DNA of 64,000 nucleotides from Amylostereum areolatum (lineage: Eukaryota > Basidiomycota > Agaricomycetes > Russulales > Stereaceae). The stretch is from the NCBI GenBank assembly GCA_012932865.1, contig SAXG01000010.1, positions 1,054,001 through 1,118,000 of the forward strand. The letters are read 5' to 3'. Below, in pieces: positions 13,475-37,865 of this stretch. The notes under the pieces were generated by a model that did not search any database, had not been told where the DNA came from, and was given only the letters and a program-made list of their open reading frames with translations. The translations under genes and the position numbers were made by a program. How positions within the stretch are numbered: the stretch's first letter is position 1; the number at the start of each line of letters is the position of its first letter.

Positions 13475-14607
13475 TCATATATAAGGAACTTTACCCTCGC
13501 ACATCGGACACCGCTCGTGCCAATACCGCGTGAAGTCAAAGGAAGGAAGGAACGCGTGGTATTTCCGCATGGAGGTGACCATGGCGTCAGGAGACTTCCC
13601 GCACGTGTGCGCCTTGACCATGGCGTGGTAAAGGGCCTTGCCGTCGCTGAGGAAGACACGGTTCGGTTTGATGATGAGGCCGCGCGCGAGGCGGAGGTCG
13701 ACCCATGTTTTGGTCGCATCGTCGAGGAGGCCTTCTTCTTTCGTCTGGATGTACGTTTCTATAGATGGAAGGATGGGTTTGGGAGGCACGAGCCAGGAGA
13801 CAGTGTCGGGCTTTCCGTGAGTGCACATATAGGCTTCTTGGATTTCGGTGTGGCGTTCGAAGGTCATGGTGTGCCCTTCGTCGCTGGACGGGGGATCATC
13901 CAGTTCCATGCTCACGTCGTTGTCGGCGGAGGCAGAGGCAGGGGGGTTGCCATCGGGGGGTTGTACAGCTGACAGCTTGGACGTTGTGACTTGGGGTGGA
14001 CCTTCGTCGGGTTCGCTGTCCGAGATCACGATCACTTCGCGCTCGAGTTTTGCTTTCGGTTGCGAGCCTGTAAGTACACAGGGCAAGGTCAGCTTTACAG
14101 ATCTCTAGACGAAAATGAATACAAGGAACCTGGTTGGTGAACTCCGTAAGCTAACATAACGGTGGCGGAAGTCAAACATCGAGCTCTGCGGTGGCAGGAA
14201 GCGCACAGCTCACGCGGGCTAATGTTGACGGTGAAAGAGTCGAGTCGGTCGACGACGTTGTCCCACGTCTCCGGAAGGATCTCCAACATACCAGCCGATT
14301 CGCGGGCCTTGTCGATGGCGCAGAGTCGTATAGAACGGTCTGGCACATGTAGAAGGCTATCTTCGGTCGCCCTACGGACCATCGCGAGGACAGCCTGCCG
14401 ATATGATGTTCGCCACGGCGGAGAAAAAGCGAGAATGCATTTATTTAAAAAGCGAAGGCGATGGTGAGCCCGGGTCGGGACTAGGCTATGATGAACACGT
14501 ACCCGGTAGGAGGGCTTGCGTGGGACGAGGAACTTGCGATCCTGGAAGACCATGATGAATTGTGCGTTAGGGCCCTGACTGGCGTCGAGAGGGGCTGGTG
14601 CGGACAT
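13475..14607 (-). CDS. CPxC-family hypothetical protein, copy 1
   Basis: Function unknown. Three exons (14607-14503, 14394-14214, 14067-13475) with phases 0 and 1 give 292 aa. Exons 1-2 encode the N-terminal module: FIMVFQDRKFLVPRKPSYR, then AVLAMVRRATEDSL, then EILPETWDNVVDRLDSFTVN. An acidic, SUMO-interaction-like stretch follows (EVIVISDSEPDEG), then a low-complexity linker. The C-terminal domain has VSWLVPPKPILP, DGKALYHAMVKAHTCGKS and the terminal FTRYWHERCPMCEGK. The CPxC near the end occurs in every full copy and could bind a metal or form a disulfide. Copies 2 and 3 lie 5-8 kb away on the same strand. Confidence 0.85.
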
Positions 14608-14971
14608 GACTAGAGGAGAGGACTCAACCTGGACTGAAGAAAAAAGCGGGGGGAGGGGTATATAAGTTTTCGGGACCCCGACTCAAAGGCGGTGAGCTTG
14701 AGCTGGGCGCACGACGGCGCCTCTTCTATTGCGATACTCGGGGAGACGGATAGGGATGGCGCAGGCCGCCGCCTGGTTTGGTATCTTCGGCGGTGCGACT
14801 TTGAGGGAGTTGGATCAGCCCTGCGCGAGTTCCTTCGCGATCCTCGATGCACACTCTTGTGAAAGACGTTCATGAGCAGTGCAATAGCATTTTATATACA
14901 CTCTACACAGTCAGAATCAAGAAAGGTGCGATTTCCCGAAAGAAAATAGATTCTTGCATTGCCCTACCTGA
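14608..14971. other. 5' flank of CPxC copy 1
   Basis: About 360 nt upstream of the start codon and downstream of the next minus-strand gene. No further coding signal. It likely contains the promoter. Confidence 0.4.
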
Positions 14972-16824
14972 TCACGGCGCAAATGGCTCTGGTCTCGCGA
15001 ACTGCTGCGGATCAGAACACGAGGGCATGCAACATAGGGGGCATGCCGGCCACTCTCGGAAACTGCACTTCAGTGTCAGAAATCGAAAAATGGTGATGCC
15101 AGATGGCGATGAGAGGGAACATAATTGGCACACCTCCAGAATCGACATGCCGTCCTCGACAAGTCCTACACGCAGCTCCGAGCTCTCTCGCAGATCCCTC
15201 GGCAGAGACACGCGGGTCTCCACGTATGGAAGTGTGGCCTCTCTCAGTTCGTTTGGCTCCCCAAACCACACGCCCAGTTTGAGTCGCTCAGACGCCGAGG
15301 CTGTTCCGTCCACGACGCGCGAGGCTTCGCCCAGTCTGCCCTCTCGTTCTTTCTGCCGTGCGACCTTGACACGAACGGGGTGGAAATCGCACACCGTCGC
15401 ATACCAACGACTGTCGCGCAGCTCCGGCGTCTCCCAGCAGAAACGCGAACGGCAGAGGTTCGACCCCATCGTCGCGCCCTGGAAAACGCGCGAATGCATC
15501 GCCCACGCCTCCCACTCCACCCAGAGCGACGCGTGTTCGAAAGCGTTGCCCTCTTCGTCGAGTGCCAATGTTTGCAGTCCCGCGAAGTCAACGATGTGGA
15601 CGAATTCCCGCCACGCGCCCTGTCGCGGCTGCACGTTGTAGCTGACGACGAAGATGGACGCGTCGTTCATGGCACGGAAAGGGGTGGCGTTCATAACGGG
15701 GTCCGGCGGGGTGTTGCAGTAGATGTCCGCGCGGTGAAACTCGGACCCGGAGGATAAGAGAGGGAGGCCAAGGGTCATCTCGACGCTGCCGTCGATCCGG
15801 AAGACGTGCAGAACGGCGGGGCTTGTAAAGTCTTCCGGCTTCAGAAGGCGCACGGTCGCGACCCAATCACGAGGTAGCAGACGTAAGGCTCTGATGTCCG
15901 TCAAGGTGTTCTGCATACGAGTCGTTAAGAACCGCGTGGTTGGCCGAGGATGCACTTGCCAAGACTTGCCATCGTCAATTGGTTTGTCCGCCAATCCCAG
16001 ATAACGCCGACGTTGTGTACTTGAAGCGCGGCGTGCATTCCTTGTATATGGATGCGCATGTGCTGAACAATGGCCGGGACATCGTCGAGTGCAGCAACCT
16101 CGACGACAAGAGAATATCTAGGCTGCGCCTTGGGGTGCAGCTCTCCTGAATGCATTGTTAATGCACAGATTCTCCATTTGCTGGGGTCTCCTCTACTCAA
16201 ACATAAGTTACAAACAAAGGAAGTCCTATACGGCGCACTCACGGCATCTGGTTGACAGATATGAGAAGGTTTTGCTGGACGTCCACGGCAGATGTACCAG
16301 AGCCGACTTCGGGCACACTGGTTTTCATTGAGAGGGCCGGAATATTGCGAAGCCCAGAAGGGAGTCTGACGAGAGTGAATAGGGGGGATTCGAAGTGTGT
16401 GAGGACGACGTGTCTAGAGAAGAGCTTGACGTAGCGTTTCGGCCGCCGGTAGGCTTCAAACCCGAGGTTCATGGTGATACGTTCTCTCCAAGATAGAGTA
16501 TCCCAGCAGCGTTGATACTCGACAAGCCTATAAATGCGCGAGGAGGTCCCCATATAACATGCCGGATGCCCATCTTGCATGCCACACCGAACGAGCGCGA
16601 GGCGGTAATGTAAAGTCGCGGAGCCGGAGACAATGCCATTGAGATGCATGCATACCTACATGAGTCAGTTAGCACCAATCGAACATCTCGAGTACTTCGC
16701 ACGGCGCACCTGTAAACATCTCACCAGGTCACCAACATCTAGCATCGACAGGATTTTGAGGACGAGTTCTGGGGGGATTCCTACGAGCGAAGCGGCTGAA
16801 GCGGATCGTGTTAGGGATGCTTGA
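14972..16824 (-). CDS. F-box protein (Agaricomycete family), 5' end unresolved
   Basis: Probable SCF adaptor. The F-box is read at about 16800-16710: GIPPELVLKILSMLDVGDLV then RCLQ. Further exons are 16655-16243 (VCMHLNGIVSGSATLHYRLA, a family hallmark), 16192-15970 (RICALTMHSGELHPKAQPRY, VGVIWDWRTNQL) and 15910 onward (LPRDWVATVRLLKPEDF, FVVSYNVQPRQGAWR). All phases agree. The intron 15969-15911 starts with GCAAGT, so it is a GC-AG intron. The frame ends at 14972, but a last intron from GTGTGCC near 15155 to TGCAG near 15086 would give a shorter C-terminus ending at 15012. The true start lies in an unidentified 5' exon, because the F-box frame is closed upstream without an ATG. Confidence 0.75.
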
Positions 16825-17236
16825 TGGCGAGAAGGAATTCGAAAGATACACGTTTTTCATATCCTCCTCCTGCGATCTCTTTGGTAGACGGTGGAAACTG
16901 GGCCTCGCAGGCCATCGATGAACATGAACAATGAACGTAACGTTCAACGTTTCAACGAAAAGTTGAAGCCGAGAACGAAGCGCATCACGTGCACGGTCCT
17001 TTCCGTCGTTCCGCGATGCCGTTTCTGCCGCGCCCACCAGCGGGTCTGAATTGCTAGACCCAACGACCGGTGAAAGTCCTACTAACCTGAAATTCGGCGT
17101 AGTGGGGTATGTGAGGGTACCGTTTGCGGCGTGGATCGACTATGAAGGGTCGGTCCGAGAATATAGATTGTCATGGATGGATGTACATCTGAGTTGACTC
17201 CGATTGATGAAGCCTCTCCCCCGCCGTCCCTCAAAT

Positions 17237-18947
17237 TCAATAGCAGCCCTGTCTACTAAATCCGACAAAGGGTACTACCTTTCTGAGATCCTCTACCCAG
17301 CTCTCTTCTTTACACACCTCCAGAACGCGCACCTCACGAAGACCGAACCCAAGCTCTCGTCTCGCCTGCAGACACCGGACGAGAGCTGCGAGCCCTCCAA
17401 CGTCATCGGCCTCCACGCAATGGTCTCCCATTCCAGGCGGCAGGTAATTGATGCACAGCGCCTCGAGATTTGGGAGGAGGCACCCAGCCTCCTCAGGCTC
17501 CCCTGACCTCGGCGCTCCCAGCAAGGGCAAAATCTCACTCAAGGTATCCTCCACAGTGCAAATCCGCCGCACGGCCGTCATCTCTCGGAACAGCATCTCC
17601 CACGCACGCCGCGACTGACTCGGTTGGACGTCCAAACAGAGGTCGACGACTTCGGACAGGTGCACGCGGTAGAGCACCGGATCCACGTGCACGTCGTGCT
17701 GAGAGGGAGCAGCAGCCCAGTCTGTGGACCACCGGAAGAAACGGGACGGGGTAGGGATTACGTTGCGGGCGACGGGGGTGGGGGTCGAGGAAGAGGGCCA
17801 AGGCGACGCCCAAATACCGATGGATACGGCTATGATGGACGAATCTGCGTCCTGAGCAACGAATCGGAAGGAAAGCGCGTGGGGGGGATGCGACGCGCCA
17901 GCGTGTTCGGACACGCAATCGGAGAGATGGTCACTGACGACGTAGTCGCGAAGTTTGTCGGAGGGAAGGTCCACGGCGAGCGTCGCGGACGGCGGGAGCA
18001 CGATTTGGGTCGCGAAGTAGGCGCTTTCGGACGCGCGGCGGTGCCGCTTGTCTGCGCAGATGACCACTCGTTCGAGAGAGGAGGGGATGCGGATGCGCTC
18101 GGGATCCACACCCGTCACGGGCCCTGCGAGGCGCATGTTCTCGAACACGATTTCGCGCGCGTTGGTTATCTTTTCGAGGAAGAGGTTCAGGTTGGAGCGA
18201 GTCGGGGACGGGAAGTATGACGCATGCGACGTATATGCGATTCGGACGTGGGTGAGTTGGTCCATGGCACGTATGGGCAAGCGTGTGAAGTTTGGGTCGT
18301 CGACGAGTGTGAGCGAGGTTAATGTTGGTATTTCCATGGTGATAGGGGTAGAAAATGGCTCTCCAGAAGGTTGGAACCAGTGATGGTACATTATCTCGAG
18401 CGAGCTGATGGGAAACTGGGGTTTGGGTTCGAGGTAGAAGGGCAAACATCTGTCGTTGGCGACCAAAAGCTTCAACGACAGAGGCTTGTCCTGAGAGCGT
18501 TCTATCATTCTCGAAGCGCACGTCTTCGACATGGCAGTAAACTCAATGCGCGTCCACAGCGAAGCGGTGTTCAGCGCGAGCTATGTAAGGACGCTCAGCT
18601 CAGCCCGTGCTGGCAACGTTTACAAAAAGCGTACTCACCATGCGCCATTTCCGGCAAACGTGCGTGAGCCTGATCCACCCGATATCGTACGTAGTGAGAT
18701 TATACCGAGAGGAATTTTCTTCGTTCTGCACGAGTCGTTGGGGGTACACGTCGCGGGTCGCGAAGAATATCTCCAGCAAGATCTCAGGAGGGAGCCGCGT
18801 TGAAGGGTGTACGACGGCGCTGCACCGCTCGACCAGTGCGAGGACTTCTTTGAGAGCTTCCGCTTCTTTTTGAAAGTCTTTCCAGCTGAGCCCGGCGTTG
18901 ATGGCATCCTCTGGTTCGGTGAGACACCGCGCGCGGGCGGCGGACAT
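17237..18947 (-). CDS. F-box protein
   Basis: Two exons (18947-18639 and 18580-17237, phase 0) give 550 aa. The N-terminus is helical (DFQKEAEALKEVLALVE, coiled coil at about residues 24-42). The F-box follows at about 49-103: STRLPPEILLEIFFATRD and WIRLTHVCRKWRM, then ALNTASLWTRIEF across the junction. The remainder (SLKLLVANDRCLPF, SLTLVDDPNFTRLPI, LTHVRIAYTS) looks like irregular leucine-rich repeats, as in many mushroom F-box proteins that select ubiquitylation targets. An in-frame ATG nine codons upstream (18974) is an alternative start. The gene sits between another F-box gene and a CPxC-family gene on the same strand. Confidence 0.85.
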
Positions 18948-18974
18948 CCAGAACTCCCTTAGAAAGAGAAACAC

Positions 18975-19497
18975 GAATCATGCAAACAACATGTTCAACG
19001 TTAGCGTAATACATAGCGGCAGTTTGATGACTGAACATACTTCGCTGCCGTTCTCTTCATCTAGTTGGACTTCAGTGGAGTTGGATGTGCTGGCGCCGGG
19101 CAAGGTTCGTGACAAGCGTGATGTTGACGTTTGCACACGTACAGTAACGTGGTGACCGAACGCGACCGTGACATTCACGGCCCTGCTCTGGTACTAGACT
19201 ACATACTACCGTACTTCATACTTGGTACAGTAGACGGTCCGCAGGCTACATATCTGGGTTTTGAGATGTTAGTACGCCTACGTATCATATGGCCCCGTGT
19301 TATGCTCCAAAGTGTCAACGTCACGATCTACGTTCAGACAACCTTCAGAGCCACGGCGATTCCGACGCGTTCTCCGATGGAGGATGCATCGGAACTCTTT
19401 CATATTCGGAGTGTTCGAAACTAATAGCAAGAAGCAACCTGCGAGCCCGTCAGTCACATCCACCCAGTCGAGATGACACCAGCGCTTACAAAATGCG
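18975..19497. other. Intergenic gap
   Basis: About 520 nt between the F-box gene start and the end of CPxC copy 2. Only short shadow frames are seen. Confidence 0.4.
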
Positions 19498-20848
19498 CTA
19501 ATCCGCACGACGGCAGGTAGGGCACTGGCGGACCCACAGCTTAACAAAATCCCTGCTAGGACAAAGGTACTTCTCCCGCAGTTTCGCATACGAGGGCAGA
19601 GCCCCAGCATGCCCGGCGTGCGCCCAAACCATGGCCACACGCAGCGGCTCTCCGGGAGCCAGAATCGGCCGTTCGTCATCGTCGCGTCCGCGCAGACGAT
19701 GGTTCCCTACCCAGTGACGCTCGGGCTCGGTGAGCCCTTCCGCGTCAGAGTCGCGCAGGTACGCGCGGATGGCGTCGTGTTTATGAAGAGGAGGTGCGAG
19801 CCACGGTAGCCTGTTGTCCTTGAACCTCTTGCGCTGAGAGTCGATGAACTCAGCTTCGAGTTTGAGGTGCGAGGCAAGGGAGTGATTGCCCTCCCCATCC
19901 GCTGTGAGGGCGTTGCTGTCGATGTCTATCGCATCGTCAACGTCTGATTCATCCGAACCCTTAGCGGAAACGTCGGGTTCAACTTCTCGTTGCTGTCAAA
20001 GTAGTTAGATATATATTCAGAGAGGAAGATACGGGCCGCGAGAGGGTACTGATGAAATTATACCTTTCCTTTTTCCGGGTCAGTCGGTTTGGCGCTGAGC
20101 TCCACAAACGCGTTGTTGACGATATCTTTCCTACGCCTGGAAGACGTCGGTTTGCCGATCTTTGGCGGTCCTTTCTTGTCGTGACCTGACGGCACGTCAT
20201 GACTGCTCGCCTTCCGCTTCTTCCCGCGAGAGGCTGGCGGAGCCGCGGCTACAGAGCCGCTAACCGGCGGGGATATTTGGGGAGACGGCGACCGGTCGTC
20301 CAGAGGGGTGTCGACAGTTAGAGCGGGGATGGAGCCGGTTGCAGGCGTTGCGTAGTCCTGCTTTTCGTCGTCAGATAGCATAATGATATCTGCTTCGAGT
20401 GGGTCTGCATGTGTGACGCGTGAATGAGTGAGGTTGTGAGCACACAAAAACATGACGCACCCGGGATTGATATCGTAAATTCAGTCAGATCCCTATGTAG
20501 CTCGCCCCATACATCGTCCGTGATCTCGACGAGCTGCGCTCCGTAGGCAGGGTGCTGTCCCATGAGCCGTATGTTCGCCGTCGCCGCGTTGCGTACTTCT
20601 GCCCGGGTCTTCGCGAGGTGTTTACGCGCTGTGGCCACCATGTCCTTCGCAGGGAGGTCAAATACTCGGATGGATGCCTGTGATACAGCACTCTGCCTTA
20701 CTGAATATGAATCAGACCGTGGAACGATCATGGGTGTAACACCCTTGTACTTCAATAGGATCGTGTTGCGGATGACGTCCCGCTTCTTGGACGCGTTGAA
20801 CGTGGAGGAATTTTGACTTTTGCGCCGGGAGGAAGAAGCGTTTGACAT
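19498..20848 (-). CDS. CPxC-family hypothetical protein, copy 2
   Basis: Function unknown. Four exons (20848-20702, 20644-20461, 20404-20064, 19992-19498) with phases 0, 1 and 0 give 388 aa. The N-terminal module reads ILLKYKGVTPMIVPRSDSYS, DMVATARKHLAKTRAEV and VEITDDVWGELHRDLTEFTI. The linker is acidic then basic: DIIMLSDDEKQ, then a lysine-rich GKKRKAS that may be a nuclear localisation signal. The C-terminal domain has LPWLAPPLHKHDAIRAYL, PGEPLRVAMVWAHAGHAG and ends LWVRQCPTCRRAD. The last exon has no internal start codon and is easily missed, but it joins in frame and matches copies 1, 3 and 4 along its length. Nuclear localisation is inferred only. Confidence 0.85.
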
Positions 20849-21206
20849 TTGTGAAGCCAGAGCGAGAGACGGGCCCGCGAGTCGCAGGACGAAATGAGTA
20901 TGTACGAGCGTGAAACCGAGGAGAACGATTGATGGGATGAGTTACGAAGTTCGCGGCTCGGACCGACGCGGGCCGGAAGGTCCCATTCGTCCACAGACGA
21001 AGTCGCTTCACCCTGTTCCCAAGAACCGTATTATCGTGTATATGTGCAAGAAAAAAGAAAAGAAAATCCGGGAAGATCGGAAGCCCAAAGACATTGTGAA
21101 GAAAACGGTACAAAGTACACAAATCTATATCCACTGCACCCGACAATGCCACGTTTGCAAAACTCGAGGTTTCGGCCAAGATACCTTTCCAATCCCACCA
21201 TACCAA

Positions 21207-22425
21207 CTAACTGACTTCGCGGGACCCACCGGCTACAGCGTTGACTGGCTGGTCCCAACAGGTTGGACACATCTCATGCCACGCGTACGAGAATGCTCGC
21301 GTCGGCCACAGACACTTCTTCCGCAGATTTTTCCAGGTGCGATTCCCCGACGCATGACCTTCGTGTGCAGCCATCATGGACTCGTACAGCTCCCTTCCCG
21401 GCGTGGGCATCGACCCCTTCTTCGATTTCCCGTATTTCATAAAGTGCCGGACCCGTCTGTTGATCCAGTTGATTTCGGTCCGAGAAAGCTTGTCGGCGTC
21501 GTCGCCGTCCGAGTAGACGTAGGCGCGGGCGGCGACGATGCGGTCTGTCGTTGGTACCAGCCACTGTGATTTCTTGGTCCATTTCGCCTCGAGGGCCTGG
21601 TGAGCCGCGAAGGAGGGGTATCCCATGTAATCCTGGCTCACGGTCATGAGAGAAAGCGAGAAATGGTCACGGACGTTGCGCACCGTGTTTTTTGACTTCG
21701 AGCTCGCCGCTCCCTTGGATCCTCCATGACGCTCCCAGTGAACTCTCTTTCTTGGAGGCTGCGAGACCTTGGCGGCGATCCTTCCACTGTATGTCCGAAT
21801 CCTATTGCGCTTTCTCGAGGCTGTGTCCGGTGGTGCGCTGCCGGACGCAGCGACGATCTCGAAATCCTCAGAGTCTTCTTCGTCTTCTTTGTCGTCAGAA
21901 TCGTCAGAATCGGACAGCTCGACAACGACCTCTTCCTCTTCCTCGCGGCGAGTGGCGGGGCCTGAGGGCAAAGATTTCAGCATTGTCTTCGACGAACATG
22001 AAAGGACCAAAAGTCGAATATGCAACGCACGGATCGCGACGGTGAACTCCGTCAGCCTGGGTTGGACCGACGCCCATACCTCCTTCGTGACCTGTGTGAG
22101 CTCATTCGGGTACTTCGGATGGAACGCGGTGATCTGAATATCGTCGTTCCGGGCCTGCTGGACTTCGGGGGCGCGGATGTTGCTCCGGGCAGACGCGATG
22201 ACATCCTAGGGTCGATCAGCTCGGCGGATGTTGTTCTAGGAAAGGAAGGGTGCGTACCTCGTACGCGTCTTTGCGCTTAACGATAAAAGGAAGCTCGCCT
22301 TCGTACTTCATCAAGATGGTGTCGTCATCGCTTTCGATGGCATTGGAAGATGCCGTGAACACAGGCGCTGTAGGAGAAGCCCGGGCGACTCTGCGAGTTC
22401 GTACGGAATACGATGCGGCAGGCAT
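21207..22425 (-). CDS. CPxC-family hypothetical protein, copy 3
   Basis: Function unknown. Three exons (22425-22258, 22205-22031, 21961-21207) with phases 0 and 1 give 365 aa. The N-terminal module reads TILMKYEGELPFIVKRKDAY, DVIASARSNIRAPEV and QVTKEVWASVQPRLTEFTVA. The linker is very acidic (EEEEEVVVELSDSDDSDD) and then basic (SRKRNRIR and PPRKRVHW), suggesting a nuclear protein. The C-terminal domain shows SQWLVPTTDRIVAARAYV, PGRELYESMMAAHEGHASG and ends FSYAWHEMCPTCWDQ plus a short tail. It is divided from copy 2 by only about 360 nt, consistent with tandem duplication. Confidence 0.87.
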
Positions 22426-22608
22426 GTGAGTGAGGTGGTGGTAAGGAGAGCAGCGAGCGGCGAGGTTGAGAGGTACATAAACACGAAGGACCTACAAAGC
22501 CGATGGACGAACGGGGAATGCCGGGCGCAACGGGTAATGTGGCACCAAATATATATGTAAGTACATGGACTCGTGGACCGAGGCTTACGCCACAGAGTCA
22601 CGAGGCGG

Positions 22609-24144
22609 TTACACCTCCATCCCTCCCCATTCCAACACACGAAACAGACGACGATCCTCCCATCGCCCAGTATCAAGACCTACAATATTTCTCCAGTATC
22701 CCTCATGATGCGCAGGTCCAACAGCTTCTGCCCATGCAGGCAGATCAGAGGTTTCCACCCCTTTGAATAACATGAAAACACGCGTGACGAGATCGGGGGC
22801 GGGAGTGACGGTCATCGGCGCCGCTCCCTCATAAGCCTGTTGTGGAAGGAACCTGAGCGCGACGTGCTGATGTTTGTTAAGGGCAGGTAGCCAGTAGCTG
22901 TGAGAGAAGAATGCGTCGTGGGTTTGGGACGAGGACGGAATAACCGGACGTACGTGATGAACGAGTTGCGCGCCTCGGTGTGGAGGCAGAGCGTTTTCAG
23001 AGTGCGGTCGAGGTAGGCAGGGAGCGCGTCGATATCCACGACTACAGAGTCTTCGGGAGACAGCCGAGCATGTGCAGGATCGAATGGGATTGCCTCGTCT
23101 GTGGTCGGAGTCGGATTTGTGCTAGTAGAAAAGTCATCATGTGAATCGTCAGCGAGAGATGCAAAGGGACGGAACGAGTACGCACTGCGCTTCCCAGAAG
23201 AGATACGAAAGCTCCGATCCGCTTCGTTTGTCCACGAGCATGCCGTCGGGCTGAGCGCCCACCGTCCACTCGATCGTCTGGAATCCATCGTTGGAATGGA
23301 CGTCTTTGGCCGTCGGATATATGGCGGAGAACGACCATGAGGGGGCCAAGCCCAAAGTGACCACCACATCTTCAACGGGACGAGGTGGGAAGAGATAGAT
23401 GACGGGCTTCCCGCCGAGTTGACGTAAGTAAAGCCAGATTTCAGACTCGTTCTCGATACCATAGTAGTGCAGCGTATGGTCGTCCGCCAGGGACTCTCCA
23501 GCATAGGTCATCCTGAACTTGTCGACGGATAATCCTAGCTTGTCTTCACATTTAGCCTTCAGAGAGTCGACGGTGATGTTGAACGATAAGACACGGAAAA
23601 TGGATGTCTGGGGGACATCCCCCCCTACACGGATAGTGACCTTCCCTCCCCTGTTGCCCCGTGTTGTAGAAGCAGCCGAGCTGCATTGGCGTTGTGCGGC
23701 ATCCGAAGTGTCTGGGGCATCGAACGGACAGACTCAGTCTCTAGAGTTGTACCCAGGAGAGAATGTACTCACCCGAGTTGGGGGCTGTATCCAATACAAG
23801 GTTTACGGTGCGCAGGGATCCGACGACGTGGGGCCAAAGTTCCTCAGAAACCTCGTATAGTCCTGGCCCGCAGTTCGGAAGGACCGCTTTGAAGTAGAAT
23901 GGGCGGCCGCCTAGAGCGCGAAACCCTCGCGCGCGCGTCACCGCTGCAATCACGTCCTAGTAGAGTTAAGAATTCTAATATGGAGTGAAGGAAGTGAAGG
24001 ATTCACTTGTTATTTTTCGTGTCTGACGATCGCAACGCCCTGCCCTTCCCACATCACGATGAGCGGACCAGTATAGGTTGGTGTGGTGGCTTGCTCTTCT
24101 TCATCTCCCGGATGAGAGCGTTTGGGTTTCTTCCTCTCAGACAT
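22609..24144 (-). CDS. Ubiquitin-like fusion protein, copy A (possibly with a nonsense codon)
   Basis: Five exons: 24144-24028, 23956-23773, 23711-23186, 23121-22954 and 22897-22609, 427 aa if the donor GTCAGA at 24027 is used. The N-terminal module is LIVMWEGQGVAI, then DVIAAVTRARGFRALGGRPF and [20 protein letters not shown]. Next comes a diverged ubiquitin-like domain (VTIRVGGDVPQ, ITVDSLKAKCEDKLG, MTYAGESLADDHTL, ending LRQLGG). Then [55 protein letters not shown], and the C-terminal [16 protein letters not shown] and [11 protein letters not shown]. In both paralogs the first exon continues a few codons further; here that extension meets TAA at 24012-24010. Either a shifted donor is used or the gene is damaged. 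Confidence 0.8.
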
Positions 24145-24620
24145 ACTCGGCGGCGAGTCTCGTAGAGTTTCTCAGAGGGTTTATGATACGGTGCGACGCA
24201 AAAGAATGATGGACGATGGATGGCGGACGTTTGAATTGTGCTTTATGCATTGGCAACGCGTGAGCGCGCCGCGCGAAAAGATAAAAAGCGGAGAAGGTCA
24301 GTACTTATGCAATCGTGGTCATTTTCGCAGAAGTCAAGGACAGACCTATTCGAAGATCCAACGCCGTCGATTGTCTGTCTAGAATGCAAGCTGCGGTGGG
24401 GAGGAGGACGAGGAGGAAGTTCAACTTTGAGGTGCAACGGTGTGGCAGAAACCATAAGGGGAAGGACCCCGGAAGCGAAGGGGTTTCCGGCAGATTCCGG
24501 GGTCCTGCCGCGCAACCCAACTCGCCTAACCCGCTCCTCGTCGTCGTCCACATCACCGACGTCCTTGTCTTCACCGTTCAGCCCGTTCCACTCAGGTCTT
24601 CACGCTTCTTCAAACCCATC

Positions 24621-25522
24621 ATGTCCGACCTCTGCCCCGTCTACGCTCCTTTCTTCGGCGCCATGGTGAGCCCCAACTCCTAGGACGACACGTCGAAATA
24701 GTCGGCGACTTATTCGTTTTCTTTTGTGCAGGGCTGCACCGCCGCCATTGTGTTCACATGTGAGCTTGAATGCGTTTTTAACATGAGGAGAGGTGGATGC
24801 TGAACCGTGGGTGCGCAACAGGTATCGGTGCGAGGTGAGTTGTCGCGCATTGCTCTAGTCTTGCAGGTCGCTGACGGCCTTTTTCTTCAGTTACGGCACG
24901 GCCAAGTCTGGTGTCGGGATCTCTGCCATGGCCGTCCTCCGCCCCGACTTGATGATGAAGAACGTCGTCCCAGTCGTCATGGCGGGTATCATCGCGGTGC
25001 GTATCCCGTCATCTCTTCCCGGTTGGCCCCCTCCAACTGAACCGAACTACGGATGTAGATTTACGGTCTCGTCGTGTCGGTGCTCATCTCTGGAACTCGT
25101 GCGTGTCTCTCCCCTTCGTGTACGCGTCGGGGTGACTAACCCCGCTTTCCGCAGTTGAGGCGCGCATGTCGCTGTTCCAGGGCTTCGTTCAGCTCGGTGC
25201 CGGTCTCTCCGTGGGCCTCGCTGGTCTCGCCGCCGGGTTCGCCATTGGCATCGTCGGTGATGCTGGTGTCCGCGGTACCGCCCAGCAGCCGCGACTCTTC
25301 GTCGGCATGGTACGCCTCTTGCGCGCTTCTCGGGGCGGCACCTCATCTGACGCACCTCCACTTGCAGATTCTTATCCTCATTTTCGCCGAGGTGTTGGGT
25401 CTTTACGGTCTCATCGTCGCCCTCATCATGAACACGAAGTCGTCCCAGAGCGGCGTCGAAGTGCGTATTCCTTCTTTCTCTGTCAGCCGCTCGTCGCTTA
25501 CCCTTGGACGCAGTGCACATAG
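24621..25522 (+). CDS. vma3: V-type H+-ATPase 16-kDa proteolipid subunit c
   Basis: Forms the membrane rotor ring that carries protons through the vacuolar ATPase. Eight exons: 24621-24665, 24732-24759, 24822-24834, 24891-24996, 25059-25098, 25155-25309, 25368-25460 and 25514-25522. They join in phase to 162 aa, the normal length. Exon 3 is a 13-nt microexon, and the last exon holds only two codons and the stop. The protein starts [17 protein letters not shown] and shows [52 protein letters not shown] and the fourth helix [19 protein letters not shown]. The essential proton-carrying glutamate is E137, as in yeast Vma3. Four transmembrane helices are predicted. Confidence 0.97.
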
Positions 25523-28798: not shown

Positions 28799-29143
28799 GC
28801 ATGGGTATCTCGCAGTTCACCACTTGCAATGGATGTCTTTTTTTCAAGAAGGCTGTTTCTGTCCCGCTCATAAGCGTCTCGCGACGATGTCTTCTAGGAT
28901 TCTGTGGATGGGTGATCTCTTCAGGATTGTCAAGTGTCGATGTAGGTGTCGACGAGCATTGTTTCCGAGAAATAAATGATGAACGTGCCGGAACCCCCAA
29001 GGTTCGATTTACATAAAGATCGACGGCCTACTGAATTGGACAATGCCACTCCCTGTCAGGCTGTCGCCGAGTCTCCACGCCACTTTTTTTACTCATAAAC
29101 GCCAGCCTGAGTCGCTGCCCTTCACGAACCACCCCCACGCGCC
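28799..29143. other. Intergenic gap
   Basis: Contains the 3' flank of the SUN-like gene (an AATAAA-like signal, aataaat, near 28972) and the 5' flank of CPxC copy 4. No gene seen. Confidence 0.4.
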
Positions 29144-30144
29144 ATGCCCGAAGCTAGCGACATTCTCAGCTCTGCGTCTGTGCTCCCGCCCCCCCTCGTC
29201 GCGCATTACGAAGATCGGCACTTTTTGATTGAACGGGACGCGTCCTACGCGGTACGTCTTCGACTTTTTCCCTGGCAGTCTTCAGGAATTGTGGCTAACA
29301 ACGGAACAATACATCGTATCAGGCTGTACTAGCAAACATCAAGAAACATGCCGGGCTGGATAAACTACCAGCGGGCACTGTAGTAACGCTTTCCGCGCAC
29401 CTCCCTGAATTTTGGAGTGGTGACCTGGAAATCACACCAGAGGTTTGGTCCCCTTTATCAAGTCGTTCTCCGTGGTGGTTCGACAGGGTCAGACTAAACT
29501 CAGTGAGTGCTTCGTCCATCACCTATCACACAATTTCTCATGGCAGCATACATCAGGCCACAATGAAGTGCTATCGTTACCCACGATGGAAGATACGAGT
29601 GAGTGTTGTATCCCTTTCACATTTCTCCGTTATGGGCGGGCGCCGGCCTCAAGCTTAGGCTGTCCTCCAGTGGCTAACCTATCATCTCAATGCGCCAGCG
29701 GTAGCAAACGAAGACCAGGCTCTGCCATCCGAGCGGCCCAGCAGCCCGTCCGATCAAATCACTCCCAACGTTCATCTGGACGTCGAGAAGGAATACCTTC
29801 GCATCAAAGGCAAAACGATTCCGTGGATAGTGCCGCCGCTGCACTTGCACAAAGCTGTTGAAGCGTGCGCCGACGACATGCCCAGTAGGGAGCTGGACTG
29901 GCCCCAAACAAAGTGGGTCAGATCACGAGCTCGGGAGTTTTCGCTCGCAGAAGCGCGACCCATCCTATCGGACGGGGAAATGCTCCATACGGCCATGCTG
30001 CAAGGGCATAGTAGCGGGCACAGGAGTGCTCAAAACACATCCCGTTGGCTGAGCCGGTACTATCGAATGTGCCCGGGTATCGATTTTATTCGTTTTTGGA
30101 TCAAAAAGTGCCCTGGATGCGATGGAGATGGCGAGACCTGCTAG
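29144..30144 (+). pseudogene. CPxC-family hypothetical protein, copy 4, with probable frameshift
   Basis: Exon 1 (29144-29251) encodes PPPLVAHYEDRHFLIERDAS and ends in phase 0. Exon 2 (29323-29502) begins AVLANIKKHAGLDKLPAGTV and reads to LEITPEVWS, where the family pattern then jumps to the next frame (FIKSFSVVV). Only in that second frame do the following splice phases work (phase 1 at both next junctions). This points to a lost base near 29440. A short exon ending near 29598 and a last exon from about 29700 encode ANEDQALPSERPSSP, TIPWIVPPLHLHKAVEA, DGEMLHTAMLQGHSSGH and the ending FIRFWIKKCPGCDG. It is the only plus-strand copy. A sequencing error is the main alternative to a genuine pseudogene. 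Confidence 0.65.
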
Positions 30145-30969
30145 AATGCATACACAGGTAGCACACGACGCGTTTTTTGGTGTATGTTTGGGTAAATTTG
30201 AATTCCGCTTGTCCCGCTTCCCGGATGCACGACGAGCGCGCAGGCCTAAGGCCTCGTGCATGAGAAGGATCCGGAAAGCGACGGTACATTGTCAGTCTGG
30301 TGGTCGAGAAAACATTGGCTCCCTGTACTTGTATGTATTTGTACCCAGTGCCACATACGAAGGGCCTTTGTCCTCGCTCAGGGACACATCCAAGACACAT
30401 CGAATGGCACCGCCTGGGACGCATCTCTCGCGCCTGGACCCACATTGGCTCCATTGTCGGTTGGTCGACGCTCGTCAATGGCGCACTCACGCGACATCAA
30501 TATCATGCATCACACGTGACCGTGGACCGCGTATGCGCCTGGCGATCAGTCGGTGATGCCGCACATCGAGTCGATATGCATCGTCCGTCCCTCTTTCGTG
30601 TACCCTGGAACGGAAGACCGAAATCCTGTAAGCGACGGCCCAGTGGTGGTTTCGTGGTCGAAAAGGCGGCGAGAGCGTGGGCTTGGAGTCAGGCCTCCGT
30701 GAAATACACATCCCGGAGAAGTATAGAGGGGAAGACTGGGTCCAAGGCACAGTGAGGGAGGTGCTTTTCGTGAATCCCGTCTGGTATAGCAAGGATAGGC
30801 TTTACTAGGCAGCGATTGAGAAGGTGAAGGGAATTATATTGGCGATGAAGAAGCTATTGCCCATCCACAAAGAAAGGGACCATTCCGAAACTTGTTATAC
30901 AGCACGTACAAGTGATTCTGCCCGAGTCAACCGTCTTTCACATATGGTCTCGCCCCACCTTCTGAAGCC
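30145..30969. other. Gap between two CPxC-family relatives
   Basis: About 820 nt with no convincing gene. A plus frame at about 30680-30800 reads IHIPEKYRGEDWVQGTVREV, faintly like the end of the shared N-terminal module (PEDVWxxVVxxL), so this may be a decayed copy. A short palindrome around aggcctaaggcct lies near 30242. Confidence 0.3.
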
Positions 30970-31485
30970 CTATGTAGAAGACCCCGAAGCAGCACCTTCG
31001 GTGGGGGCAACGACTCCATCACCGGCACCGGCGCTTTGTTTCGCAGTGGACCCACTGGCACCTTGAACTTTTCCAGGGGCGCAGTTAGGCTGCAAGTCTG
31101 TGGTAGATTACCGTCAGCGATGGCTCCCTACTAATGGGAAAGACAACCAGGACGCAAGGACATTGCGCTCACCATCCAAGCCTGGGCCGTCGATAGCTAA
31201 GCCGAACCCATCCAGTCTGTCCCTCACATGATACCAGACCTCTTCTGAGTGAACTTCCGAGGGGCCGTCTCCATAGGGAGGGCAGTATACTGTAACGTGT
31301 ATGCGTATCCCCGAATCCTCCGGAGGCTCGACAATGCCGATTGCCTCCAAAGCGACCCTTCGAGCATCCTGTAGTGTGCGTCAGCTACAGAACAAGGGCC
31401 CACAGATTCAGCGGACCTTTAGGGTAATTGGTCGATTTACAAGTATCCTGCGGGGTCCGTCAACGACTTGTACAAGGTATCCCAT
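30970..31485 (-). CDS. Stand-alone copy of the shared N-terminal module (130 aa)
   Basis: Three exons (31485-31417, 31368-31173, 31097-30970) with phases 0 and 1 give 130 aa. Exon 1 reads MGYLVQVVDGPRRILVNRPI, equivalent to the opening strands of the other family members. Exon 2 reads DARRVALEAIGIVEPPED, VTVYCPPYGDG and VHSEEVWYHVRDRLDGFGLA. Exon 3 is a short glycine/alanine/serine-rich tail ending SGSST and a stop. Neither a CPxC domain nor a ubiquitin-like domain follows. It may be a genuine single-domain protein or a gene shortened at its 3' end. The exact fit of three exons with the family's phases favours a real or recently active gene. Confidence 0.6.
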
Positions 31486-31872
31486 GTTCGTTTCGACGCT
31501 CGGTTGTCGACTATGGGTGGTGGTGGATCGGGAGGGTTGCCAGTGAGTCAAGAAGTCGAAAGATCTTTCCAATCCCACGCACGGTCCAAGTATCGTGGTT
31601 CATATGCGGTAGATAGATTGCGCTGACTTCGGTTTCCCCTCGTGCTCATAAGTACACATGAATTATTCAGGTGAAGAGTTGGCAGAAGCCCTTCAAGGCG
31701 ATGGGAAGAGCCTCAGATGGGACGAAGCAGTTTTATTCCAAACATAGGTTCTCAGGCGGCCGACTTCCGCACACCGCCGTTGGTCAGAAGGAGCCTAAGA
31801 TAGAGCCAAGAGTATATCAATAAGCACTCCCCTCCGAAAGACACGTCAGAACACATACGGGCATTCTTACGA

Positions 31873-33888
31873 CTACAACCACCTCTTCCACCCCGAACCC
31901 TCCCACCCGCGCTCAAACTCGGCCTCTGAAAATCGCCTCACAGCCGACTCCCTCCCGCGCCGCCGCATCGCCTCGTCCTCCTCTGGCGAAAGCACGAGCG
32001 CGCTCCGAATGGCGTCGGCGAACTCGTCCGTGGTCTTCGCGTGGAAGCCTTATCCATCGTGAGCAAACGTGGAATATAGAGAGAGGCGAGAGGGCATGTA
32101 CCTGTGGGCTGGCCGTCGACTGGGAGGACGATGTCGTACAGAGGTCCGGCAGAGGCATGTGCCACCGGAATGACACCCGCCGCCTACAGGAAGGATTATT
32201 GGGATCGTGTTTATCCAAGGTAAGACTGTGGAAGATCTCGTACCATATACTCCACGACATTGATCCCGAAATGCTCGTCCACCATAGTACTAAGGCCCAC
32301 GCTAGCCCGAGCGAGATACGATAGCATTACCGGGTACGACGCGTTGACGACAAACTCGACCGAATCCTGCATACACCAGTGTTAGCAAAAATCGTAGGAG
32401 CCACCAGCTAGCCAAACCTACCGACAAGTTCAGCTCGGAAGCAAGCTTACGAAGGCCTTCCACCCGTTCCGCGTCGCCCTCGTTGCGTACACCACCTATA
32501 AGAACCAGCCGTACAGGCGATCCACCTGCCTTGTACTCCGGGCATTTTCGGAAGAGCGCATCCAGCGCACGAACCTGGGCTGCGTGGTCTTTCTCTGGTC
32601 TGAAAAATGAAACAGGTCAATTCGAGGGAAAAGCAAAGGGGCACAGAGCCCTACCGGAACTGCGCAACGCTGACCAGAATGCGCTCGCGTCCTGTGAGAG
32701 GGAAAGAAGCCATGGCCCGTGTGTCGCATGGTGGATAAACGGCGTCCGCATGGTCCGGGGTGGTTTGTTTGTGGGGCGATGGGGAAGGCAATAGTACCTT
32801 CAGGAGGAGGGAGAAGGGGAGAAGGAGGATGTAAAATGGAGCGTGAAGCGCTTCAAGAAGGGGGTCGGAATGTTGGAGGATGGCATTGACATGGTTCTTC
32901 GTCCAGGTCGAGTTGGCCATCACGAAGGAGGCTCGGCGAAGGGCTTTAGCGTAGTGGTACATAAACAAACGGTAGTACCTATATCCAAACTCTGTGTCAA
33001 TATGTCTTCTGAATGAACCTGGAAGAGGACGTACATGAGTTTTCCTGAACTCAGAACGACAGAGGATGATATAGTGTTCGAGTTTGTGTGTCCTTGTCTG
33101 CGCGATTGAACCCGGGCCAACATGTCGGTGCTGATGGTTGGGTAGTGGACGTAGGCGCCAATGGGGATGCCCGTTAGCCATGCAACAACGTGGAAAGTGA
33201 AGGCGTAGCCCATGGTGTCGATGTAGAGGTCGGGGATAAACTTTGTCATGGCCTCCCAAGAGAGGTACATCGACCCGACACTTTGCCCCAAAAGCGTGAA
33301 GCGCGGCCAGGTGGAGTCTTCCACGTAACGACGCGAGTTGAGGAACACAAAATGAAGCGACGACGGCGCAAGAGTGATGTCGAAGCGAGCCTGGGCAACG
33401 GGATGAGGAACACACTGAAGCGTACACTTTGAGAGAAACACACCTTGACTTTTTCGATAATCTGCTCCTTTGTTACGTTGACATCCCCGCTGTACACCAC
33501 ACTGACCACATCTGGCTCTGTCCTTTGCATAAACGCAATCGCGGTCCATAGGACGCGCTCACCGCCGCCCCCGGCATTACTGGACACCACTTGGTAGAAT
33601 CAGACATCTTGGGTATCTGAGAGCCTCAGAGGGAGCACAAACTCACCAGTATGGATGGAAGAACCCCACGAATTTCTTCCCGGAAGGCGACTTGAGGCCA
33701 ATGGACATGGCCACGAGTTCCCGCTGGTGGGCCTTCTCGCTCCAGAGGCTGCGGACGTAAAGAACCGTAGGGAGGACAGAGGTGAGGAGAAAAGTTGCTA
33801 TGTATGTCGCATTCCATATCCCTGAAGGATCCCGGACGAACGCGACCAGAGGAAATGCGGTGAGGAGGAGGAGAGCCGCGTTGGCCAT
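31873..33888 (-). CDS. ALG11: GDP-Man:Man3GlcNAc2-PP-dolichol alpha-1,2-mannosyltransferase
   Basis: Adds the fourth and fifth mannoses to the lipid-linked oligosaccharide on the cytosolic face of the ER in N-glycan synthesis. Eight exons: 33888-33647, 33579-33444, 33390-33035, 32978-32655, 32599-32422, 32366-32244, 32183-32102 and 32048-31873. They join in phase to 538 aa (yeast Alg11 548). Seen: an N-terminal membrane anchor ([17 protein letters not shown]), [99 protein letters not shown], and the GT4 donor-site motif [19 protein letters not shown] then HASAGP. It is divergent from the ubiquitin-like fusion gene at 34402, with about 510 nt between them. Confidence 0.96.
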
Positions 33889-34401
33889 GTCTGAATCTGA
33901 TGTTTAGAAATCATACTTCGATGGTAAAAAAAGCCGTCAACTCACAGTAGCTGGGTCACAGTAGCTCACAAGAAGCCTCCTAGCCGCAATTTGAACGCGA
34001 ATCAGAGTAAATACAGTGCGTTGGGAGTGCGAGTCGGAGGGGGAGGGGAATGATGAAATTGGAGGAGGTCAAGATTGTCGCGGTCCGGGACACGTCACAA
34101 TCACGTGGCCATAACTCATTGATTATTATTTCAAATTTACGCTCTTACTCTTGTCTAATTCCGAGGCAAATGTCTGAGTCTCGCAAGTATGAACATCTCC
34201 TGGAGTCCTGGTTGCGCTGCTGAGTGTCGCAAGTTGCAAGTACGTGTGTTCTGCATACCCAATGCAACCGTCGTGCTCATAGGAGATCATGTGCGTACGG
34301 CGCACGCACTGGTCCCTTTTTCAGGCGTTCTTCAAGCGCCTGGGTACATAAGAGAGTCGGGCTCATTTTCCCTCCCCCCATCGACCTCCAATTCCCCGAA
34401 A
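33889..34401. promoter_or_regulatory. Divergent intergenic region (ALG11 / ubiquitin-like fusion B)
   Basis: About 510 nt separating two divergent starts. It must hold both promoters. A CACGTC and a CACGTG motif occur near 34090-34115. Assignment to either gene is not possible from sequence alone. Confidence 0.4.
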
Positions 34402-36014
34402 ATGATGAGCTTCTTTAACGTTGGCACACGCCTACCTCTATACACGGAAAACGATCAGAATCAGCAAACCATGCCAGCTGTCTCCACGCCGGTCTCTCCC
34501 CTCATCGTGGCATGGAATGATCGAACTGTGGCCGTCGTTCGTTATGATGACTATGATGTAAGTCTCCCGTGTCGCTCGGTATCTTTGCATTTACAGTTCG
34601 TATACAATGATAGCTGACCTAGCACTATACAGGCTCAGATCGATGCGGTACGGCGTACTCGTAGATTCCAAGCTCTCGGCGGACGCCCGTTCTACTTGAA
34701 AGCGTCCCTTCCGGGGTATGGAGACCAAGAACACGAAATATCCGAAGAATTGTGGCCTCACGTTGTCCGTTCCTTACGCACTATCACTCTGACATTGGAC
34801 CAGAACTCGCCCAGCGCTCTCACTACAAGTATGTACGCCGTGCCCGATTCTGTCGATCTACACGAGTTGATAGTGATGACTTAGGTGTCACGACTCATCG
34901 GCCTCGCCTTAATCGCCCGTCTGGGCCGTCTCATGTTCCCGGCCCGCGGATACTTGTCAAGACCCTCACTGGACAAACCATCGCCATTGAAATCGTCTTA
35001 TTCAATACAACAACGGTAGCGGATCTCAAGAAACTCATCCAGGAGAAGGAGGGTACACCGCCAGAACTCCAAAGACTTATCTACGCCGGTAAGCACTTGG
35101 AGGATGGTCCAACTCTGCAAGACTACGGCATCCATAATGATTCCACGATACACGTTATCACGAAGCTGCGTGGTGGAAAACCAGTCATCTACCTTTTTCC
35201 TTCCCGTTTTCTTGCAAACACATCCATCACATTAGGCTTGGTCCCGTCGTGGTCATTTTCCGCGATATATCCAAACGCCAGAGACGCCTCTTCCGACAAC
35301 GGCCTGCAAGTCATCGAGTGGGTGGTGGACGCACGGACGGATGGTGTGCTCGTCGACAAGGCCAGCGGGTCAGAATTGTCTTATCTCTTCTGGGAGGCCC
35401 AGTGCGTACTCTATGTCCAGTGTGCTTGAGTGAATTCTCAATCTCCTTTAGCACCAACCCCGCACCTCCCCTCTCGCCACCGACATCCCGACCTTCAACG
35501 CCTATGGCAGATGAATCAGTGCCTTTCGACCCTGCCCGTCCCCAACTCTCCCCACACGGGTCGGTGCTGCTCAGCGTCGAGAAGCTGCCGATCTACCTCG
35601 ACCGCGTTCTCAAAGAGCTATCCCTCCACACCGAAGCCCGCAATTCGTTTATCACGTACGTCCGCTGTGGCTCTACCCTCGTGCGTGACCGGGAAGACTC
35701 ACTTTGCGCGCTGCCGCAGCTACTGGCTCCCGTCCTTCCTCAAGCACAAGCACATTGCCCTCAGGTTCCTTTCGCAAGATTCGTACGAAGCAGCTGCGCC
35801 GATGACGGTCACACCCGCACCCGATGTCGTCACGCGGGTATTCATGCTCTTCAAGGGCATCGACGAACGCGACTTGGAGACGTGGGGAGAAGCCGAAGCG
35901 CGTGCAACGCATGACGTCGCGTTCTGGAAGAAAGCTGTCGGGGTTGATGCTGAGCGTGCGGAGGACCGCAGCCTGTTCCGTGTGCTGGAATGGGGAGGTA
36001 TGGAGGTGATGTGA
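34402..36014 (+). CDS. Ubiquitin-like fusion protein, copy B (retains LRGG)
   Basis: Five exons (34402-34557, 34633-34828, 34885-35401, 35452-35655, 35720-36014), phases 0, 1, 2 and 2, give 455 aa. The N-terminal module (residues about 30-117) reads [39 protein letters not shown] and [20 protein letters not shown]. Residues 139-215 are a clear ubiquitin fold: [51 protein letters not shown], ending TKLRGG. The Ile44 patch and Lys48 equivalents are kept. Directly after GG comes KPVIYLFPS, then [18 protein letters not shown], a linker, [19 protein letters not shown] and a C-terminal block with [11 protein letters not shown] and [12 protein letters not shown]. The domains after ubiquitin have no recognised function. 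ATG 34405 is an alternative start. Confidence 0.88.
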
Positions 36015-36120
36015 ACAACAACTGTGATCGCCCTTGCGCTTTGTATCTGTAGGTTAATACCGCCCGGGAATGCGTGTATAACAGCTGTAGGGTCTACAAG
36101 CGTGTAGCTATTGTTATCGA

Positions 36121-37865
36121 GTGAGGCCACTGCAAGGTGAGGCAAAGCGTTCCCGTCTTCCTTATTTAAGCCTTCTCGAACGGCCCCAGTTGGGACATCC
36201 CCTTTCCCAACACTCCTTCCTTCCGTCCACACAACATGGGAATCATCACCTCCAAACTCAGCCCTCTCTTCCTCTGCAGTGGGATTCCGTTACCATTCCT
36301 CGGTACAAAATCTACGGGGCAAGTTCTTTTTTATTGAGCGTTGTCCTTCACTGATGTTTGATCCATCAACAGGACGCAGTGAACGCTGTCCGTAATGACC
36401 CCAAGTTCCGCGCCTTGAAAGATCGCCCGTTTTATTTCAAAGCCACTATCCCAGGGAAGGGCAAGGACCCGAGCATGATTGAGTATATGATCCCGGAGGA
36501 TGTGTGGCCCAGCGTCGTCGAGAAGCTGGGCACGGTACACATCGCATTGTTCTTGAGCTCTCCGCAAGATGTAAAAGGTGCCACCCTTTGCCCTGCAGTG
36601 TCTCTGTGCCTATGAATTCTGACGCTCGATCTCACCGTTAGATGATCACAGCAGCATTGTGCCACCATACGATAGCTCGAAAGACAACCGTGACCACGTC
36701 CTAGTCGAACTTCCCGACGGCTCCCGACTCCGTGTCGACATCGATTCATTCGCGATCACCGTCGGCGATCTGAAGGCTCTTGTTTTTCGTGCAGCAGGAG
36801 GAGGAGAAGGTCAAAGATGGTTCTTGAAAACCGACGTATTCCTCGACGACAACGACACACTGGGACAATGCGGGATCCAAAAGGGTCGTCTTATTCACAT
36901 TGTGAACCAGCATATGGCGCTATCGTGCGCCGAAAGCCTGCGTTCGTCCAGGTCTAGCATCTCTTCGCCAAGCATTTCGTCGTCCCATGAAAGCTTCGTA
37001 AGGTTCAGAGCCAGGAAACCGGTGGTGTACCTCTTCCCGCCGCAGACCATGCACGGTGTGAACGTCACGCTGGAGCTATCTCGCGTATGGTCGTTCTTTG
37101 TCGTATACCCTCCGGCTGTGGACATCCCAACCGAAGACGGGCACCAGGCGATCAGATGGACTGTTGACGCCCACCCGGACGGGACACTGGTTGATAAGAC
37201 TAGCGACCTTGAGCTATCTTACCTCTTCTGGGAGGCTCAGTGGGTGGCTTTCGCTTCGTTCGATGATGTCGCCACCTAATTTGATATACCCGTTCTTCTG
37301 TATAGACTCAACCGCGCTGTCCAGCCTATGTCTCCACCAGTATCCCGCCCTGACTCCCCCGTCAACTTGAACGTAGTCTCTTTCGATCCTGCCCATCCTC
37401 AACTCAACCCGCACAACTCTGTCCTTCTCTCAATCGACAAACTTCCGATATACCTCGACCGTGCCCTCAAAGCGCTCTCCCTCCACACGGAAGCCCGCAA
37501 CTCGTTTATCACGTATGCGGTCCATCTGTAGACCCTCCTGCGCAGCGTCTCTGACGCCCTACTTTTTCAGATACTGGCTCCCGTACTTCTTAGGCCACAA
37601 GCACGTCGCGCTCCGCTTCGTGCCCCAAGACTCGTACGAAGCTGCAGCGCCAATGAAAGTCACGCCCGCACCCGCGGTCATCACGCGCGTATTTATGCTT
37701 TTCCGCGGAATCTCGGAGGACGAGATACCAGTGTGGGCTGAGGCCAAAGATCGCTCGGAGCTGTCCGTTGAACATTGGAGGGAAGTCGTCGGTGTCGACA
37801 GTGGACGCGCAGAGGATGGCGACCTGTTTCGTGTGCTGGAGTGGGGAGGCATGGAGGTTCTGTGA
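36121..37865 (+). CDS. Ubiquitin-like fusion protein, copy C (start codon unresolved)
   Basis: Tandem paralog of copy B. Exons: up to 36318, 36373-36577, 36642-37239, 37306-37512 and 37571-37865. Phases match copy B (0, 1, 2, 2). Intron 1 begins GCAAGT (GC-AG type). The first exon frame reads LPLQWDSVTIPRYKIYG but contains no ATG back to its upstream stop near 36121, and the nearest ATG (36236) is in another frame. So the start is missing, non-ATG or in an unseen exon. The N-terminal module continues AVNAVRNDPKFRALKDRPFY and IPEDVWPSVVEKLGTVHIAL. The ubiquitin-like domain is weak (HVLVELPDGSRLRVDID, FLDDNDTLGQCGIQKGRLIH) and its GG is lost before RKPVVYLFPP. The C-terminal blocks are intact, ending WGGMEVL. 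Confidence 0.75.

Follow-up and report, generated by a model that had tools for sequence, protein, structure and literature searches.

Host genomes have kept parts of retroelements in differing roles. In the available sections of the literature on ZBTB11, an integrase-like head can serve transcription control (PMC5384227), and 808 of 828 fusions of BTB, integrase and zinc domains belong to Chordata (PMC12062965). The accessible part of a study on DRT2 indicates that restriction can be the role of a retroelement fragment (PMC10951436), and a fungal screen for fusions between host genes and transposable elements (TEs) names zf-H2C2 once in its available portion, among the non-TE Pfam domains (PMC10799480). 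As for SUMO, the excerpt of one article mentions retroviral integrase degradation and cites work on SUMO motifs of HIV integrase (PMC10144533), and in another the listed occurrences of the term stand among the references (PMC5741268). The locus described here lies in a stretch of 64,000 nucleotides, the window, from the fungus Amylostereum areolatum (contig SAXG01000010.1 of assembly GCA_012932865.1, positions 1,054,001 to 1,118,000 of the forward strand). It contains eight genes, A to H, that share an N-terminal module and continue, in most of the larger branch, into a tail resembling the zinc-binding head of a retroelement integrase or, in the smaller, into a ubiquitin domain. Among the matches listed in our literature searches (in part the best 12 of 215, 12 of 196 and 10 of 203), no title concerned a fusion of this module with an integrase head.

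The reading preferred here, to which a probability of about 0.6 is assigned, is that the family grew by whole-gene duplication, with a ubiquitin-like front domain, a head taken from a domesticated integrase, and one branch in which the tail was exchanged. The genome comprises 57 Mb in 182 contigs, and the window region is also present as a second haplotype on contig C114, with 98.6-100% identity in the aligned stretches, short repeats aside. C-numbers (C2, C6, C13, C15, C96, C106, C114, C145, C150, C174) denote other contigs of the same genome. The eight genes were modelled by hand on GT/GC-AG introns, with splicing read by eye from the sequence, and the models confirmed the gene positions of the initial annotation:

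Gene A exon 1, 14503..14607, minus strand: module strands b1-b2; phase-0 donor
Gene A exon 2, 14214..14394, minus strand: remainder of the module with phase-1 end; exon 2 profile E 1e-20
Gene A exon 3, 13475..14067, minus strand: SUMO-interacting-type motif VIVISDS at 14015-14035, linker, and integrase NED-NTD-like tail at 13478-13858 without the second His
Gene B exon 1, 20702..20848, minus strand: module strands
Gene B exon 2, 20461..20644, minus strand: remainder of the module; exon 2 profile E 2e-21
Gene B exon 3, 20064..20404, minus strand: SUMO-interacting-type motif IIMLSDD at 20367-20387 and basic linker
Gene B exon 4, 19498..19992, minus strand: integrase NED-NTD-like tail at 19501-19881; PF17921 E 3.5e-6, above cut-off
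Gene C exon 1, 22258..22425, minus strand: module strands
Gene C exon 2, 22031..22205, minus strand: remainder of the module; exon 2 profile E 2.4e-25
Gene C exon 3, 21207..21961, minus strand: SUMO-interacting-type motif VVELSDS at 21906-21926, linker, and NED-NTD-like tail at 21210-21632; PF17921 E 0.0027, below cut-off
Gene D exon 1, 24007..24144, minus strand: module strands; in-frame TAA near the exon end in both haplotypes
Gene D exon 2, 23773..23956, minus strand: remainder of the module; found by the exon 2 profile
Gene D exons 3-5, 22609..23711, minus strand: ubiquitin domain (PF00240 E 2.5e-11) and unnamed C-terminal domain
Gene E exon 1, 29144..29251, plus strand: module strands
Gene E exon 2, 29323..29487, plus strand: module; apparent frame slip of one base, shared by both haplotypes
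Gene E last exon, 29701..30144, plus strand: NED-NTD-like tail at 29752-30141 (PF17921 E 0.0043); only the first 60 bases present in C114
Gene F, 30970..31485, minus strand: module exons at 31417-31485 and 31173-31368, short tail at 30970-31097; no CPxC; absent from C114
Gene G exon 1, 34402..34557, plus strand: module strands
Gene G exon 2, 34633..34828, plus strand: remainder of the module; exon 2 profile E 3.9e-26
Gene G exons 3-5, 34885..36014, plus strand: ubiquitin domain (PF00240 E 4.1e-22) and unnamed C-terminal domain
Gene H exon 1, 36236..36318, plus strand: deletion breaks the frame in the window allele, C114 allele open; GC donor
Gene H exon 2, 36373..36577, plus strand: remainder of the module; found by the exon 2 profile
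Gene H exons 3-5, 36642..37865, plus strand: weak ubiquitin match (E 0.0069, below cut-off) and unnamed C-terminal domain

The module is the joined product of exons 1 and 2 and spans about 80 residues, arranged as two strands, the intron position, a helix, two further strands, a W-containing helix and a last strand assigned by its hydrophobic pattern. One R and one W are invariant in all eight window modules, and an exon 2 profile, built from sequences including the eight genes themselves, found these eight loci and no other in the window, at E values from 3.9e-26 to 1.8e-13, the following frame having E = 1. That the two gene groups share one module of common origin, as the initial annotation had proposed, was borne out by several comparisons. 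With 300 shuffles for each pair of A, B, C, E or F against D, G or H, 13 of 15 pairs reached p<=0.0034, the pairs F-H (p 0.11) and E-H (p 0.69) failing. The single profile-profile comparison by hhalign, of the five modules against the three, gave 97% and E 1e-10. In a set of 13 modules, consisting of the window genes and those on C106, C13, C96, C150 and C2 (C2:903098), the hidden Markov model (HMM) of either group placed each module of the opposite group ahead of 2000 shuffles, gene F only narrowly (E 0.014 vs 0.065), and leave-one-out detection succeeded for 13/13 (E <= 5.9e-5).

The motif E-[ILV]-x-x-E-x-W-x-x-[LV] attributed to all eight genes is strictly present in A, D, E and G; the other genes depart from it through a D in B, a Q in C, both an M and a D in H, and one extra residue in F. 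Pfam scans agreed with the earlier statement that no named domain covers the module: no usable match emerged, and four DUF families matched one member each, with a best E of 0.042. PDB sequences likewise yielded no usable match, the ubiquitin profile and the tail profile found nothing in the module, and Foldseek with the module and tail models returned no match under 0.64. A low-confidence structure model resembles ubiquitin-like folds, and the likeliest reading of the module is an interaction domain with a diverged ubiquitin-like (beta-grasp) fold.

ULD_2 (PF22893), a fungal ubiquitin-like domain, was considered as the parent family of the module and rejected. Two genes of the same genome carry it (C145:226442-226764 and 229430-229747); they read with a phase-0 intron between strand 2 and helix 1, in the same linker as in the window module, and share an I-T-P-x-x-W stretch with it. 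The linker and phase are suggestive, but the intron lies 4 columns apart in the alignments and the sequence tests fail. PF22893 exceeded its cut-off in 0/8 window modules, 0/2 further modules and not in the consensus, the C145 positive control scoring 77 bits. Comparison by hhalign gave 7.7%, and ranks of 4 and 22 among 3002 against shuffles indicated no significant sequence similarity.

Tabulation of intron phases placed the phase-0 intron in the same column in 13/13 modules (eight in the window, five elsewhere) in three alignments, with exon ends read by eye, which upheld the fixed phase claimed previously; C15, which nearly duplicates C13 and is the sixth locus outside the window, shows the same intron. 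The phase-1 end of exon 2 stood in 7/8 window genes and at outside loci, but in E it is read only across the frame slip, and at C2:903098 a weak donor occupies the phase-1 site while the open frame runs on. The exon 2 length of 175-205 nt applies to seven of the eight genes; that of E measures 165 nt and contains a one-base frame slip in its second half. Simple duplication would account for the agreement in phase. The phase-0 introns of A (14395-14502, 108 nt), B (20645-20701, 57 nt) and C106 (~60 nt) each have a length divisible by three and contain no stop, so that intron-retained transcripts would keep the frame, and gene H has a GC-AG intron at this site (36319-36372) in both haplotypes.

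The tails of A, B, C and E form a common C-terminal domain (E 2e-52 to 4e-58, with a profile that includes these four). A CPxC tail had been assigned to five window genes; it is found in these four, but F carries the module and a 42-residue tail without CPxC. Against PF17921 (Integrase_H2C2), with a curated cut-off of 25.5 bits, the tail of B alone among the seven tested scored above it (27.5 bits, E 3.5e-6); C (18.2), E (17.6), C106 (18.8) and C15 (21.9 bits) fell below, and the Pfam scan gave no match to this family for A and C96. NCBIfam had no match for the tail of B, and a PDB sequence search with the tail profile gave nothing usable. A search with PF17921 across the fungus's own genome was swamped by retrotransposons. 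The four HHCC zinc ligands are present in 6/8 tails (B, C, E, C106, C13 and C15); A is without the second His, and in C96 the CPxC is readable only in another frame. The canonical integrase finger spacing, given as HX3-7H X23-32 CX2C in the accessible part of PMC5384227, is not followed in its first element, since B, C, C106, C13, C15 and C96 have H-x2-H and only E has x3. The end of the C96 gene is seemingly frame-shifted, and upstream of its exon 1 a second exon-1-like piece (C96:179610-179750) is followed by a GT donor.

A confident structure model of the tail, built from four sequences (pLDDT 86.7), was compared with known structures (VIA); 14 of 17 among the matches listed were integrases, at middling Z, led by the foamy-virus NED-NTD, with Ty3, MLV and lentiviral integrases lower. 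The predicted model thus matches the integrase NED-NTD fold. Additionally, a profile of eight family tails matched 30/30 fetched retrotransposon loci of the genome, which are near-identical copies, and 0/30 reversed frames, the alignment running through the extension domain to CPxC; the His-His loop is about 5 residues shorter in the family than in the genome's own elements. The frames of A, B, C and E stop 4-16 residues past CPxC, and their Pfam scans contain no catalytic core family. Because of the Pfam match of B, the tail model and the retrotransposon matches, the CPxC tail is read as the NED-NTD (HHCC zinc) head of a Ty3/gypsy-type integrase without the catalytic core, a head that was domesticated long ago and would bind zinc.

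Between module and head lies a linker. SUMO-interacting motifs follow the pattern [VILM][VIL]x[VIL] and then three S/D/E. This pattern occurs in 4/6 tail-type linkers (A, B, C and C106), some linkers being incomplete, and lies 6-12 residues after the module in A, B and C; when the four linkers are shuffled, it arises in 0.5-1.9%. It is not present in C13, C96, the partial linker of E, or in F, G and D. The motif may bind SUMO, and basic stretches within the B, C, C13 and C106 linkers can be read as nuclear import signals.

In D, G and H, the module is followed by a second domain related to ubiquitin. PF00240, with a cut-off of 25.4 bits, scored 78.2 in G and 43.6 in D, and below the cut-off in H (16.6) and at C2:903098 (13.0), where the frame joined to the module matches ubiquitin weakly (E 0.092); C150 (with C174) holds another copy of this type. 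The domains of D and G share their likeness with the PF00240 family but differ from its ubiquitin in being diverged and placed inside long proteins, with an unnamed domain after them. This C-terminal domain of D, G and H has no Pfam match, and that of G also none in NCBIfam.

The history of the two branches was examined on a module tree of 85 columns, from which C15 was left out. A branch with support of 84/86, present in 88% of 200 bootstrap trees, sets apart the five ubiquitin-type genes, among which C2:903098 counts only via its weak ubiquitin match, and their neighbour is the tail-type C106 (90/90); no branch is starred (95/80), and those of F, A and H are long. The ubiquitin type needs one change on the tree, shuffled labels averaging 4.2, and the integrase-tail group needs two because the tail-less F falls inside it. 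One exchange behind the phase-1 intron can therefore explain both groups; it probably happened once, and 85 columns leave room for more.

This bears on the mobile exon of the initial annotation. A rival explanation in that vein has exon shuffling repeatedly place the two-exon N-terminal unit before unrelated genes. That one module precedes two or three different tails, and that it is joined to another frame at C2:903098, speak for such spread, as does a dispersed repeat of about 400 bp, which carries 66 bp of A exon 2 (window 14318-14383, 85-86% identity) and, in its C69, C126 and C101 copies, 78-98 bp similar to the exon-1-like piece upstream of the C96 gene. The repeat, however, shows module fragments only; exon 2, with phases 0 and 1, cannot enter another gene alone without breaking the frame; the module begins in the gene's own first exon; and the tree asks for a single exchange. 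Repeated insertion is thus improbable, and the spread by shuffling is not upheld, whereas local duplication and differing C-terminal parts are supported. These parts are an integrase-type zinc domain or ubiquitin with an unnamed domain, and nothing in them supports the term effectors. The repeat qualifies the duplication reading in that exon fragments do move, yet no example of a functional gene formed in this way was seen. Its copies lie at C126:292754-293154 and on C69, C101, C157, C117 and C32; five matches, the query's own locus included, reach at least 394/401 bases, another reaches 267 and further ones are partial, some of them maybe haplotype mates.

Duplication also has to be weighed against decay. 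Apparent lesions in D, E and the window allele of H (the C114 allele of H has an open exon 1 with the module strand), the lack in C114 of about 2 kb (window 29761-31763) that hold the whole of F and the greater part of the last exon of E, and a C15-like gene copy interrupted by an insertion of about 750 bp inside module exon 2 (C6:58633-59575) would suit a cluster of mostly decaying copies without function. The models of A, B, C and G are nevertheless open, and the ratio of nonsynonymous to synonymous differences (pN/pS) lies below 0.5 in 7/8 comparisons: 0.21-0.45 in module exon 2 (4 pairs, two near pS saturation), 0.13-0.35 in exon 5 (3 pairs) and 0.63 in the ubiquitin part of G/C150. General decay accordingly appears quite unlikely, and the lesions and haplotype differences represent the birth-and-death turnover to be expected in a family of neighbouring genes.

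Judged from its anatomy, the tail-type protein may be a nuclear adaptor. The larger branch has, in order, the ubiquitin-like domain, in most members a SUMO-interacting-type motif, a linker and the C-terminal integrase head; in the smaller branch, everything behind the phase-1 intron would have been swapped for the ubiquitin and unnamed domains. The head might bind nucleic acid or pair with integrase-like heads, the ubiquitin-like domain and SUMO-type motif might link the adaptor to the SUMO/ubiquitin machinery, and the purpose could be transcription or silencing control, or action against retroelements. The data do not choose between transcription control and restriction. A tentative possibility is that proteins of the tail type regulate transcription by binding DNA, as vertebrate ZBTB11 does, and have no anti-retroelement role; the basic linker runs fit this, but A is without its second His and DNA binding is here only predicted. 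A decoy restriction factor, whose core-less head joins host Ty3/gypsy intasomes so that the ubiquitin-like and SUMO-type parts stop or degrade them, seems unlikely. The genome is indeed rich in integrase zinc domains (897 first-look candidates, of which 150 were scored and 150/150 matched), copies are lost or present and absent between haplotypes, and the available parts of the sources describe the Gag-derived restriction factor DRT2 in yeast (PMC10951436) and propose CGIN1 as a mammalian resistance gene (PMC3424704). Yet the distance between the tails and present elements is large (HMM 21-23 bits), and the tails have the shortened His-His loop in common, which points to old domestication, and the tested pairs show constraint rather than rapid change. 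A lineage-specific fungal defence family is a slightly more doubtful proposal, in which the head would enter intasomes or integrated elements and hand them to the SUMO/ubiquitin machinery, with ubiquitin-tailed paralogues as partners via the module.

Under the duplication reading, the apparent mobile exon becomes duplication with probably one tail exchange. In this fungus, a host gene family of several copies, which has an intron structure of its own, appears to have preserved the zinc-binding head of a retroelement integrase and to combine it with a probably ubiquitin-like domain not described before, so that part of a jumping gene has apparently turned into a growing family of the fungus's own proteins. 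Compared with PF17921 and the NED-NTD of foamy virus and Ty3, the tails have the same predicted helical fold and helix order and the colinear pattern L...H..GH.....L.......dF...W...CPxC, but differ in having no catalytic core, a shorter His-His loop, one His fewer in A and a new N-terminal domain fused to them. We know of no link between the module and GIN1, GIN2 or CGIN1. According to the accessible sections of PMC3424704, these vertebrate genes, likewise domesticated, arose from gypsy or retroviral integrase pieces; the HHCC finger is kept in GIN1 and GIN2, which, unlike the window tails, retain an integrase-like domain after it, and CGIN1, a fusion gene, has been proposed to act against retroviruses. 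The comparable published case found, ZBTB11, is vertebrate: as described in the available parts of PMC5384227 and PMC12062965, it is a host gene that keeps only the integrase HHCC part together with an interaction domain, as the window tail genes do, and it differs from them in its BTB domain and Kruppel fingers, its HX6H spacing and the N-terminal position of its finger.
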